DNA of 64,000 bases. It comes from Gammaproteobacteria bacterium (lineage in GTDB: Bacteria > Pseudomonadota > Gammaproteobacteria > Competibacterales > Competibacteraceae). Below are positions 41,729 through 49,092 of this stretch, one piece after another (within the stretch, counting starts at the first letter, position 1; every line of letters starts with the position of its first letter). The stretch spans positions 62,001-126,000 of the forward strand of contig JADLEK010000076.1 of NCBI GenBank assembly GCA_020846135.1, read 5' to 3'. The position numbers and the translations under genes are program-made. The notes beneath the pieces were generated by a model, which saw only the letters and a list, made by a program, of their open reading frames with translations, did not search any database and was not told the origin of the DNA.

Positions 41729-41801
41729 CATGCCGAGGGGCGCTGCAACGGTTTCTACCGTCAGGCTCGGCATGGCGCGGCTTTCATAGCCAACGGCGCC
41801 C
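41729..41801 (+). promoter_or_regulatory. S-adenosylhomocysteine (SAH) riboswitch
   Basis: The leader of ahcY carries the SAH-riboswitch core. P1 pairs atgccgag (41730-41737) with ctcggcat (41766-41773), the conserved gcgctgcaacg follows (41740-41750), and a short hairpin acggtttctaccgt (41748-41761) closes the centre. A pseudoknot can form between ggggcgc (41737-41743) and ggcgccc (41795-41801). These riboswitches turn on SAH hydrolase when SAH accumulates. The element ends 15 bases before the GGAGA ribosome-binding site. Confidence 0.92.
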
Positions 41802-41825
41802 GTTCATTCCTGAATGGAGAGTGTT

Positions 41826-45886: not shown

Positions 45887-48046
45887 ATGAAAACTGCGCA
45901 TTTGCAGCCCGCTGACCGCCCGCTCACTGCCGCCGACGTGCCGATGCAACCCGCCTCCTGGGATATCTGGGACAAAAAATACCGGCTCAAAGCTAAGAAT
46001 GAGCGGCCACTGGATGAGACCATTGATGGAACCTGTCAGCGGGTAGCGCGGGCGCTGGCCGAAGTCGAAACCACCCCGGAATTGCAAGAACGCTGGTATG
46101 AAAAATTCCTGTGGGCATTGCGGCATGGCGCGATTCCTGCCGGGCGCATCATTTCCAACGCCGGCGCCTGGGAACACAAGCCGGCGACCTCGACCATCAA
46201 CTGCACCGTGTCCGGCGCTATCCAGGACTCGATGGACGATATTCTGGGCAAGGTGCATGAAGCCGGATTGACGCTCAAGGCCGGTTGCGGCATCGGCTAC
46301 GAATTTTCCACCCTCCGCCCACGCGGCGCTTATGTTTCCGGGGCTGGGGCCTACACCTCCGGGCCACTGTCGTTCATGGATATTTACGACAAAATGTGTT
46401 TCACCGTCTCGTCTGCGGGCGGTCGACGGGGCGCGCAAATGGGGACTTTCGATATCGGTCACCCGGATGTCATGGAGTTTATCCGCGCAAAGCGTGAGGC
46501 GGGCCGGTTGCGGCAGTTCAACCTGTCGTTGCTGATCACCCGCGAATTTATGGAGGCGGTTCGGCATGACACTGACTGGGTGCTGGCGTTTCCACTGCTG
46601 GCCAAGGAAGTGGAACAGGATCGGATCGATGTCAACGATCCAGAACGCATCGTGTGGCGCGAATGGCCGGTTACTGTGGGCTTGATCGTCAATGAAACCG
46701 GGCAGGCTGCCTGCAAGATTTATCGCAAAATTCGCGCCCGCCGGCTCTGGAACGCCATCATGGCCTCCACTTATGATTATGCGGAACCCGGCTTTATTCT
46801 GATTGATGAAGTCAACGAGATGAACAACAACTGGTTCTGCGAAAACATTCGGGCCAGCAATCCTTGCGGCGAACAGATGCTCCCCCCTTATGGTTCGTGC
46901 TTGCTTGGTTCAGTCAATCTCACCCAGTTTGTCCAGGATCCGTTTACCGCCCAAGCCCGCTTCGATTGGAAAATCTATCGGGAAGTGGTCGCCATCTTTA
47001 CCCGAATGCTGGATAACGTGGTGGAAATTAACGGTCTGCCCTTGGAACCACAACGCCGGGAAATCGCTGACAAGCGTCGGCACGGCATGGGCTATCTGGG
47101 GCTGGGTTCCACCCTGACCCTGCTGGGCATGAAGTACGGCTCGCCGGAATCGCTGACGTTCACCGAAAAAGTCACCCGGGAACTGGCGCTGACCGGTTGG
47201 CGTACAGCCCTGGAACTGGCGCAGGAAAAGGGTCCGGCCCCGATCCTGGAACGGGAGTTCACCGTGACCGTGGCCATGCTGCGCCAACGTCCTGAGATGG
47301 CCCGTGACGGGATTCAGCCCGGCACCCGGATCAAAGGCAAGGTCCTGCATGCCCGGTATAGCCGCTATATGCAACGGATTGCCGAAATAGACGCCGATTT
47401 GACGGCAAAACTGGCCGAAGTAGGTGCCCGATTTACCCATCACACTTCTATTGCGCCGACCGGCACCATTGCCTTATCCCTCGCCAACAACGCCAGTAAC
47501 GGCATTGAACCCAGTTTTGCTCATCACTACTTTCGCAACGTGATCCGCCCCGGTAAGAAGTCCAAGGAAAAGGTGGATGTATTCTCCTTTGAACTGCTGG
47601 CTTACCGGCATCTCATCAATCCCCGAGCCATACCCAATGCGGAATCTGATGAAGAACGCCTGCCGGAAGTGTTTATTACTGCCGACGACGTAACGCCCCA
47701 TCAACATGTTGATATTCAGGCGGCGGCGCAGAAATGGATTGACTCCAGCATTTCGAAAACGGCCAATGTCCCACCCGATTTTCCCTACGAAGACTTCAAG
47801 AACATTTATTTCTACGCCTATGAGCAGGGCCTCAAGGGCTGCACCACCTTCCGGTTCAACCCGGAGGCGTTCCAAGGAGTGCTGGTCAAGGAACAGGACC
47901 TGGCCAACACCTGCTACCGGTTTGTGCTGGAAGACGGTTCGGAAATCGAGGTCAAGGGCAACGAGGAGATCGAGTACGACGGTGAGGTTCACACGGCGGC
48001 GAACCTGTTTGATGCGATCAAGGAAGGGTACTACGGGAAATTCTAG
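45887..48046 (+). CDS. nrdJa: Adenosylcobalamin-dependent (class II) ribonucleotide reductase, catalytic subunit
   Basis: This 719-residue protein reduces ribonucleotides to deoxyribonucleotides using a B12-derived radical, with or without oxygen. C106 in 'TSTINCTVSG' and C338 in 'PPYGSCLLGSVNL' are the redox pair. C327 in 'ASNPCGEQM' with E329 is the thiyl-radical site; the 11-residue spacing from C327 to C338 fits class II. 'TSIAPTGTIALSLANNASNG' is a substrate-phosphate loop. It ends without the usual cysteine-rich tail, which is supplied by the separate nrdJb. This split form is known in Pseudomonas. Confidence 0.95.
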   Translation: MKTAHLQPADRPLTAADVPMQPASWDIWDKKYRLKAKNERPLDETIDGTCQRVARALAEVETTPELQERWYEKFLWALRHGAIPAGRIISNAGAWEHKPATSTINCTVSGAIQDSMDDILGKVHEAGLTLKAGCGIGYEFSTLRPRGAYVSGAGAYTSGPLSFMDIYDKMCFTVSSAGGRRGAQMGTFDIGHPDVMEFIRAKREAGRLRQFNLSLLITREFMEAVRHDTDWVLAFPLLAKEVEQDRIDVNDPERIVWREWPVTVGLIVNETGQAACKIYRKIRARRLWNAIMASTYDYAEPGFILIDEVNEMNNNWFCENIRASNPCGEQMLPPYGSCLLGSVNLTQFVQDPFTAQARFDWKIYREVVAIFTRMLDNVVEINGLPLEPQRREIADKRRHGMGYLGLGSTLTLLGMKYGSPESLTFTEKVTRELALTGWRTALELAQEKGPAPILEREFTVTVAMLRQRPEMARDGIQPGTRIKGKVLHARYSRYMQRIAEIDADLTAKLAEVGARFTHHTSIAPTGTIALSLANNASNGIEPSFAHHYFRNVIRPGKKSKEKVDVFSFELLAYRHLINPRAIPNAESDEERLPEVFITADDVTPHQHVDIQAAAQKWIDSSISKTANVPPDFPYEDFKNIYFYAYEQGLKGCTTFRFNPEAFQGVLVKEQDLANTCYRFVLEDGSEIEVKGNEEIEYDGEVHTAANLFDAIKEGYYGKF

Positions 48047-48059
48047 GCTTCAAAAGCGA

Positions 48060-48089
48060 ACGGGGACCGAGTTGGCGCTCGGTCCCCGT
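48060..48089 (+). terminator. Strong hairpin after nrdJa
   Basis: A perfect 12-bp stem, acggggaccgag (48060-48071) and ctcggtccccgt (48078-48089), with loop ttggcg, lies 13 bases after the nrdJa stop. No U-tract follows, so it may terminate, pause or protect the nrdJa message rather than act as a classical terminator. Confidence 0.65.
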
Positions 48090-48108
48090 GCGTGAGGAGA
48101 CATTTTCG

Positions 48109-48387
48109 GCAACCGAGCGTCTCCCCTATGGCTGTATTTCCAAATACAGGGGTAAAGATAGCAGTTTTCAACCTCCTGCCGCCATGGTTTTAAGGCTCGG
48201 TTGCACCTTAACTTTATGGTGCTAATCCATGAACAGTCTTAAGAGTGTGTTTGTTAATGAGTATTCAAGATTTAGACTTGGCAAGTGGGAGTGTGTAAGA
48301 GCACACTGGCGCAGCCCTCCCTCTCGCTAGACTCCGTCTAATCTTGTGATGTCTCACAGCCCCTTGCAATGTAGGGGCTGTTTTCTT
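48109..48387 (+). ncRNA. Candidate structured RNA between nrdJa and nrdJb (leader or small RNA)
   Basis: Nested complementarity fills this gap. gcaaccgag (48109-48117) pairs with ctcggttgc (48196-48204) around ctgtattt/aaatacag (48132-48139/48142-48149). gcacc/ggtgc forms a hairpin (48203-48222). agatttagac (48268-48277) can pair with gtctaatct (48336-48344) around agtgtg/cacact (48290-48295/48302-48307). An intrinsic terminator ends it. The pattern suggests a regulatory leader of nrdJb or an independent small RNA. I do not recognise it as tmRNA, 6S, RNase P RNA or a cobalamin riboswitch. Confidence 0.45.
48356..48387 (+). terminator. Intrinsic terminator just before nrdJb
   Basis: acagcccc (48356-48363) and ggggctgt (48374-48381) form an 8-bp stem, followed by TTTTCTT. 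It lies only 6 bases before the GGAGAGGA ribosome-binding site of nrdJb. The 3' arm can alternatively pair with cagccc at 48312-48317, a possible anti-terminator. Confidence 0.75.
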
Positions 48388-48408
48388 CCACCGGAGAGGA
48401 CGAAAATT

Positions 48409-49092
48409 ATGGCCATCAAGATCGACAAAAAAATCGTCGCCTACAGCGTCGTCAAACCCGATGACGCCCCGCTCGTTGCCGAAGCCACTGCCCCGGCTGT
48501 GCAACAAATGCATGAAAGCCTGGAACGGCCTGATGTGTTGCCTGGCGCAACCTACAAGGTCAAGACGCCGCTGTCGGATCACGCGCTCTATATCACTATC
48601 AACGACGTAGTTCTCAACCCTGGCACCGAACATGAGATGCGCCGCCCGTTCGAGATTTTCATTAATTCTAAGGCGATGGATCATTTTCAATGGATCGTCG
48701 CCCTGACCCGGATTATTTCAGCAGTGTTCCGCAAGGGTGGCGACGTCACCTTCCTGGTGGAGGAAATGCGTTCGGTGTTCGATCCAAAGGGCGGCTATTT
48801 CAAAAAGGGCGGAAAATATATGCCCTCGCTGGTTGCTGAAATCGGTGACGTGATCGAATCGCACATGCGCTCAATTGGCCTGCTCAAGGAGGACGGTCCC
48901 GACGAACATCAACGCAAACACATCGAAGCGCAGCGCAATAAATACGAACTCGGCGTGAAAGCGGTTGAGGATGCCGGCGCTGATGGCTTCCCGCTGGAAG
49001 CTACGTTGTGCAGCAAATGCCAGACCAAAGCGGTCATTGCCATGGATGGCTGCCTGACCTGTCTGAGTTGCGGCGATTCAAAGTGTTCCTGA
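48409..49092 (+). CDS. nrdJb: Class II ribonucleotide reductase, small C-terminal subunit
   Basis: The 227-residue protein supplies the C-terminal part of a split class II reductase. A TSCPD-type domain ('FEIFINSKAMDHFQWIVALT', 'RIISAVFRKGGDVTFLVEEM') is followed by a cysteine-rich tail with C201/C204, C215/C218, C221 and C226. Those cysteines are expected to shuttle electrons from thioredoxin to the NrdJa active site. The ATG at 48409 follows GGAGAGGA by 8 bases; an upstream in-frame ATG at 48346 lies in the terminator region and is rejected. It is separated from nrdJa by 362 bases. Confidence 0.92.
   Translation: MAIKIDKKIVAYSVVKPDDAPLVAEATAPAVQQMHESLERPDVLPGATYKVKTPLSDHALYITINDVVLNPGTEHEMRRPFEIFINSKAMDHFQWIVALTRIISAVFRKGGDVTFLVEEMRSVFDPKGGYFKKGGKYMPSLVAEIGDVIESHMRSIGLLKEDGPDEHQRKHIEAQRNKYELGVKAVEDAGADGFPLEATLCSKCQTKAVIAMDGCLTCLSCGDSKCS

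Follow-up and report, generated by a model that had tools for sequence, protein, structure and literature searches.

In the window (i.e. the whole stretch of 64,000 nt analysed here), the genes for the large and small subunits of a split class II RNR, nrdJa and nrdJb, are separated by a gap of 362 nt (48047-48408), which raises the question of what this gap is and to which gene it belongs. A first-pass annotation had described it as highly structured and as looking like a riboswitch or attenuator of nrdJb, or a small RNA ending there, with the cofactor or a nucleotide as a possible signal. As a description of the structure this was accurate: the plus strand of the gap folds at -144.3 kcal/mol (z = -5.6), a value equalled by 0 of 100 dinucleotide shuffles, and every feature named was found in its place, i.e. 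a 12 bp hairpin (48060-48071/48078-48089, in extended form with 15 nt arms at 93 %), a long-range stem at 48109-48117/48196-48204 that proved to be a perfect 10 bp helix (48109-48118/48195-48204), a stem with one bulged base (48268-48277/48336-48344) and an intrinsic terminator before nrdJb (arms 48356-48364/48373-48381, 9 bp, then TTTTCTT), for which the predicted transcript end near 48387 appears right from the sequence. The minus strand of the gap is likewise unusually structured (z = -4.6). What had been missed are a 33-codon ORF within the gap and the antisense orientation of the 12 bp hairpin (Table 1).

Table 1. Features of the nrdJa-nrdJb region, in window coordinates
Feature	Position	Strand	Remark
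nrdJa, large subunit of split class II RNR	45887-48046	+	host gene
Predicted antisense RNA, ~84 nt	48053-48136	-	runs 48136 to 48053; ends from predicted promoter and terminator
Predicted antisense terminator (the 12 bp hairpin)	48057-48092	-	T-run on minus strand
Leader stem P1, GGAGAC/GTCTCC	48096-48124	+	loop bears pseudoknot 5' strand GCAACCGAGC (48109-48118)
Leader helices P2, P3 and P4	48126-48187	+	P2 48126-48132/48181-48187; P3 48134-48139/48142-48147; P4 48148-48152/48173-48177
Predicted antisense promoter	48143-48171	-	-35 TTGAAA 48166-48171; 17 nt; -10 TGTATT 48143-48148
Pseudoknot 3' strand GCTCGGTTGC	48195-48204	+	identical to antisense RNA loop
Hairpin with tiny-ORF Shine-Dalgarno, GGTG 48218-48221	48203-48222	+	hand-aligned P5
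33-codon ORF MNSLKSVFVNEYSRFRLGKWECVRAHWRSPPSR, ATG...TAG	48229-48330	+	phrog_21154; predicted beta-hairpin
Intrinsic terminator of tiny-ORF mRNA	48356-48385	+	outer pair C-G to T-A in G004/G032/G025
nrdJb, small subunit of split class II RNR	48409-49092	+	host gene

Comparison with related genomes shows that the gap is a patchy insertion and not an nrdJ control element. The genome analysed is a MAG of Competibacteraceae placed close to Candidatus Contendobacter. The host operon is the same as the nrdJa/nrdJb operon for the split class II RNR of Pseudomonas aeruginosa (PMC4520616), and the cassette is an addition to it in a subset of Competibacteraceae. In 14 Competibacteraceae, the congener G003 among them, the two genes are spaced by 30-42 nt, vs about 380-560 nt in the cassette carriers. 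This cassette (cassette 1) is found in six genomes (G000, G001, G002, G004, G032 and G025), the five other copies being 75-89 % identical to that of the window, and remnants are left in G029 (72 nt), G026 and G034. The same site holds a different, unrelated cassette of about 430-460 nt in three genomes (G013, G021 and G028). Carriers of either cassette have in common a distinct nrdJa 3' end, i.e. the last 54-75 nt, ending in ...GKF and not in ...GKW. Over the last 75 nt, identity is 0.89 among cassette 1 carriers, 0.83 between cassette 1 and cassette 2 carriers and 0.81 among non-carriers, vs 0.72 between carriers and non-carriers, and the nrdJa segments upstream show no carrier/non-carrier split. 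Therefore, cassette and gene end are exchanged as one unit, with homologous recombination as the simplest route. Site-specific integration was considered and rejected, as the copy of the nrdJa end that it would have displaced to the far side of the cassette was not found.

In G026, an additional nrdJa locus, which adjoins an unrelated ATPase gene, has the carrier-type nrdJa end and the initial portion of the cassette. G013 (contig C102, locus L125) likewise has an extra nrdJa that lacks nrdJb and adjoins a P-type ATPase gene, and this same solo locus occurs in G022 and G026. In G004, G008, G010, G015, G019 and G026, a long uninterrupted frame (1044-1206 aa) contains nrdJa in two parts, divided at about residue 328 or 130, probably by inteins; if so, nrdJa is a target for mobile elements of more than one type. 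Two cassette copies carry MITE-like inserts of their own, i.e. one of ~200 nt with 15 bp inverted repeats (GGGGCGCGAGTTGAG) before the cassette terminator in G002 (L020), and one of ~120 nt, bounded by inverted ends resembling CTGTAYAAAAAC, at the tiny-ORF start in G025 (L023).

This distribution bears directly on the idea that AdoCbl or nucleotides control nrdJb through a riboswitch, an attenuator or a processing element in the gap. The location within the nrdJ operon and the terminator just before nrdJb fit such a role, but the cassette is absent from most relatives having the same operon, the family of the tiny gene is found away from nrdJ elsewhere, and nrdJab is retained both in G025, despite an insert within the tiny ORF, and in G029, despite reduction of the cassette to the 72 nt remnant. 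Nor did Rfam at curated thresholds give a match anywhere in the gap, AdoCbl and nucleotide riboswitches included, and no tRNA or tmRNA was found. We therefore regard this idea as highly improbable and largely refuted. The best sub-threshold Rfam match was a weak one on the minus strand to RF02353 (BjrC68), which in the window and in G002 covers the whole length of the predicted antisense RNA (E about 2e-4 per genome); since E 1e-3 is reached in other genomes and the model also matches 9 of 14 controls, this identity was rejected and the match taken as one of two-hairpin shape only. The motif cagccc (48312-48317), previously put forward as an anti-terminator pairing with the terminator 3' arm, lies inside codons of the conserved ORF and reads gcggcc in G004, so the pairing is probably incidental. 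The terminator hairpin, which ends 27 nt upstream of the start codon of nrdJb, would make read-through from nrdJa into nrdJb less frequent; a promoter scan recognised no promoter of nrdJb's own in the carriers.

The tiny ORF is under purifying selection, with dN/dS of 0.07-0.26 among the five intact copies (first four codons left out). Together with its homologues, it matches phrog_21154 (PHROGs v4; E 1e-6 to 2e-8), a family annotated as of unknown function; the ORF belongs to it, but the PHROG entry is silent on leader, antisense RNA and role. The homologues have the motif KxVxVxxYxRxRxGxxExVxxHxRSxP; the tiny proteins gave no match in Pfam, NCBIfam or the PDB. The 33-residue product is basic and hydrophilic (pI 10.9, GRAVY -0.79), and AlphaFold2 predicts a beta-hairpin of two beta-strands (pLDDT 86.7). 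Homologues were found in 32 genome contigs of Proteobacteria, Bacteroidales and one Polarisedimenticolaceae MAG, on small plasmids (ColE-type in E. coli and Raoultella) as well as Alteromonas and Halomonas plasmids, between cI and N of lambdoid phages, and in viral contigs, and nothing tied these homologues elsewhere to nrdJ. Among E. coli strains, the cI-N version is carried by 233 of 5426 genomes. Of 83 proteins encoded beside the homologues, 5 are ImmA/IrrE-type peptidases, and IS1595 transposases and resolvases also occur there; single matches to BstA and PD-Lambda-1 are suggestive of a defence context, not a statistical association. The protein is perhaps a mildly toxic, maintenance or phage-interference factor. 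In one viral contig (L074), the unit of leader and tiny ORF is followed by a tandem duplicate of that leader, and a copy on a Marinifilum scaffold (L092), nearly identical to the Raoultella ColE plasmid region L066, is likely to be assembly contamination.

Upstream of the ORF lies a leader RNA whose structure is conserved. For P1-P4, the Shine-Dalgarno hairpin and the pseudoknot, 96 % of cells in the six copies are paired, vs 36-47 % with the partners slid; seven pairs are altered on both sides vs 2.8 in shuffles, and the covariation score was reached by 0 of 500 shuffles. The compensatory changes are located in P2 (two two-sided changes), P4 (three in the outer and one in the inner part) and the Shine-Dalgarno hairpin, in which pairing is kept in 6/6 copies though the sequence varies. 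Thus, the lack of conservation and covariation in relatives that would have spoken against the earlier reading is not observed: the gap is a conserved, structured RNA with covarying pairs, and it is the assignment to nrdJb that fails. The pseudoknot pairing GCAACCGAGC/GCTCGGTTGC is also kept in 6/6 copies, yet it shows only two one-sided G-U changes in the six sequences, and P1 is invariant, so covariation supports neither of them; both are proposed from complementarity (10 bp) and analogy.

Leaders of the family at large behave similarly. In 37 homologous loci they reach a median z of -2.26 vs -0.33 for random windows of the same loci, the latter being mostly coding, and the leader 5' part is complementary to the start region (p<0.1, mismatched-pair comparison) in 18/37 loci vs 2/37 for a control region. 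A covariance model of the leader (R1) gave no believable match outside Competibacteraceae, and the matches at E 0.02-0.1 were without the ORF. A general stem closing the leader with the tail after the stop codon was rejected, being significant in 11/37 loci only, with the window cassette not among them. In a mainly alphaproteobacterial and viral subgroup (L059, L060, L079, L080, L090, L098, L107 and L108), a strong closing stem of this kind (GGCGGT.../...CCGCC) stands in place of clear antisense signals.

A masked Shine-Dalgarno could also belong to a translational riboswitch or thermosensor that acts on the tiny ORF in cis without any antisense RNA, with TGAGG (48093-48097) pairing the anti-Shine-Dalgarno arm and the Shine-Dalgarno being free or masked. 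Indeed, RNAalifold prefers UGAGG:CCUCA (alignment columns 2-6/141-145), mutually exclusive with P1 and the Shine-Dalgarno hairpin, and GTGAGGAGACA is invariant in the six copies; the modelled helix is a possible ON/OFF alternative fold. We nevertheless consider a pure cis-switch unlikely, because the Rfam search of the gap found no riboswitch family, the homologues' leaders differ from each other in sequence, as aptamers would not, and the minus-strand promoters and terminators would be left unexplained.

These minus-strand signals point to antisense control of the tiny ORF, as predicted from sequence. The 12 bp hairpin lacks a T-run on the plus strand but has one (CTTTTG) on the minus strand, and its most plausible role is to terminate an antisense RNA; its arms are mostly paired across copies, with compensatory changes in G032/G025. 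The predicted RNA would consist of two stem-loops, i.e. a target-recognition stem-loop and the terminator hairpin (z = -6.1), and the same fold is found in 6/6 cassette copies (z -4.7 to -6.7). The ten letters of the pseudoknot 3' strand, GCTCGGTTGC, recur in the first loop of the predicted RNA. When sigma70-type promoters were searched from -125 to +20 of the tiny-ORF start, minus-strand promoters were found (p<=0.05) in 12-14 of the 37 loci, not all of which are independent, vs 2-3/37 on the plus strand; the count of 14/37 compares with 7/101 at flanking genes (Fisher 3e-5). The antisense promoter is thus present in only about 40 % of family loci. In 14/37 loci its -10 lies at -56 to -70, a range picked after seeing the data. 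Upstream of it, strong terminators are also more frequent on the minus strand (10/37 loci, often at -131 to -170) than on the plus strand (2/37).

In the six cassette copies, the best minus-strand promoter is located at -77 to -87 (p 0.02-0.04 each), and where indels have shifted the spacing, in G000 and G002, another promoter hexamer restores it at 17 nt. The -10 of G000 (TGTATT) is poor, and a strict promoter scan did not list this promoter; it overlaps the conserved leader positions TTTCAA and AAATAC, which could be kept for RNA structure instead. No sense-strand promoter was found for the cassette. The upkeep of the antisense promoter despite indels, together with the purifying selection on the ORF and the compensatory changes in the leader, argues against the cassette being a mobile-element scar, i.e. 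a decaying passenger without present function. Its patchiness, the broken or partial copies in G025, G026, G029 and G034, and the swapping in of an unrelated cassette in G013, G021 and G028 are what such a scar would leave; on balance, we find this explanation quite improbable.

Our analysis favours with fair confidence that the gap is an inserted, self-contained mini-gene of the phage/plasmid type, in which translation of the tiny protein is checked by its own antisense RNA. The sense RNA would arise by read-through from nrdJa or from an unrecognised promoter, and would stop at the terminator ahead of nrdJb. In this RNA, the P1 loop (GCAACCGAGC) may pair with GCTCGGTTGC just upstream of the hairpin masking the Shine-Dalgarno, and we infer that this pseudoknot promotes, rather than inhibits, translation of the 33-residue protein. 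The opposite strand would give the antisense RNA across P1, and, its loop being a copy of the pseudoknot 3' strand, this RNA should occupy the P1 loop, block the pseudoknot and keep the protein off. Finally, the cassette would move among Competibacteraceae by recombination with the nrdJa 3' end.

A comparable plan is known from repZ/Inc of IncI-alpha (ColIb-P9), for which the account in PMC8383071, citing Asano and Mizobuchi 1998, describes an antisense RNA that blocks a translation-activating pseudoknot: the loop of a hairpin base-pairs with a segment shortly before the start region, and the antisense loop competes for this site. Judged by sequence, both traits are present in the cassette, i.e. 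a leader loop complementary to a strand near the Shine-Dalgarno and a predicted antisense RNA with a loop equal to the pseudoknot 3' strand. Unlike repZ, the cassette encodes a 33-residue product and not a replication initiator, and no repY-like leader peptide was seen; there is no replication gene between the nrdJa stop and nrdJb, and the cassette is not a replication control region. The type I toxin-antitoxin system timP/TimR of Salmonella likewise combines a masked Shine-Dalgarno, an activating 5' UTR pseudoknot and a repressing RNA (PMC11295053), to which the small-protein mRNA with masked Shine-Dalgarno, the proposed activating pseudoknot and the putative repressing RNA of the cassette would be analogous. 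TimP, in contrast to the basic, hydrophilic, predicted beta-hairpin protein, has 38 residues and resides in the inner membrane, and transcription of TimR is divergent, whereas the RNA of the cassette would be a true cis-antisense RNA. Other type I toxin-antitoxin traits found here are a short ORF under purifying selection on mobile DNA and a structured mRNA with masked Shine-Dalgarno. The hydrophobic membrane peptide that is usual, not universal, in such systems was not found (GRAVY -0.79), and with a protein that is not membrane-like and only putatively toxic, the cassette cannot be classed among them.

The second cassette (L030 of G028, L038 of G013 and L041 of G021) encodes a phrog_33859 protein. 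It follows the same plan, with a minus-strand terminator with a long T-run, a hairpin loop CCGGGAGG that pairs with CCTCCCGG, and, ahead of the phrog_33859 ORF, the stretch AAAGGAGGTGATC, which is almost fully complementary to the 3' end of 16S rRNA. Both phrog_21154 and phrog_33859 are found next to HTH-ImmA/IrrE genes, and the viral contig L075 has the two in tandem. Only tentatively, as a proposal that may well fail, do we suggest that phrog_21154 and the partner-like phrog_33859 represent an undescribed, multi-phylum class of antisense-controlled, pseudoknot-activated mini-genes for non-membrane beta-hairpin proteins, i.e. type I toxin-antitoxin or phage-interference modules of a new kind. 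If true, a large number of tiny genes in plasmids, prophages and chromosomes, most of them without annotation, would share one control plan of folded leader, masked start site and antisense RNA. This would add a non-membrane kind to the antisense-controlled small proteins, offer a straightforward signature by which others could be found, and open a way to the function of two phage protein families. The locus also illustrates how an exchangeable accessory cassette can reside in a core operon, and cautions against taking a structured gap for a riboswitch of its flanking genes.

Elsewhere in the window, a SAH riboswitch (RF01057, 64 bits) is located at 41729-41808, directly upstream of an S-adenosylhomocysteine hydrolase-like ORF at 41814, which is a known arrangement.
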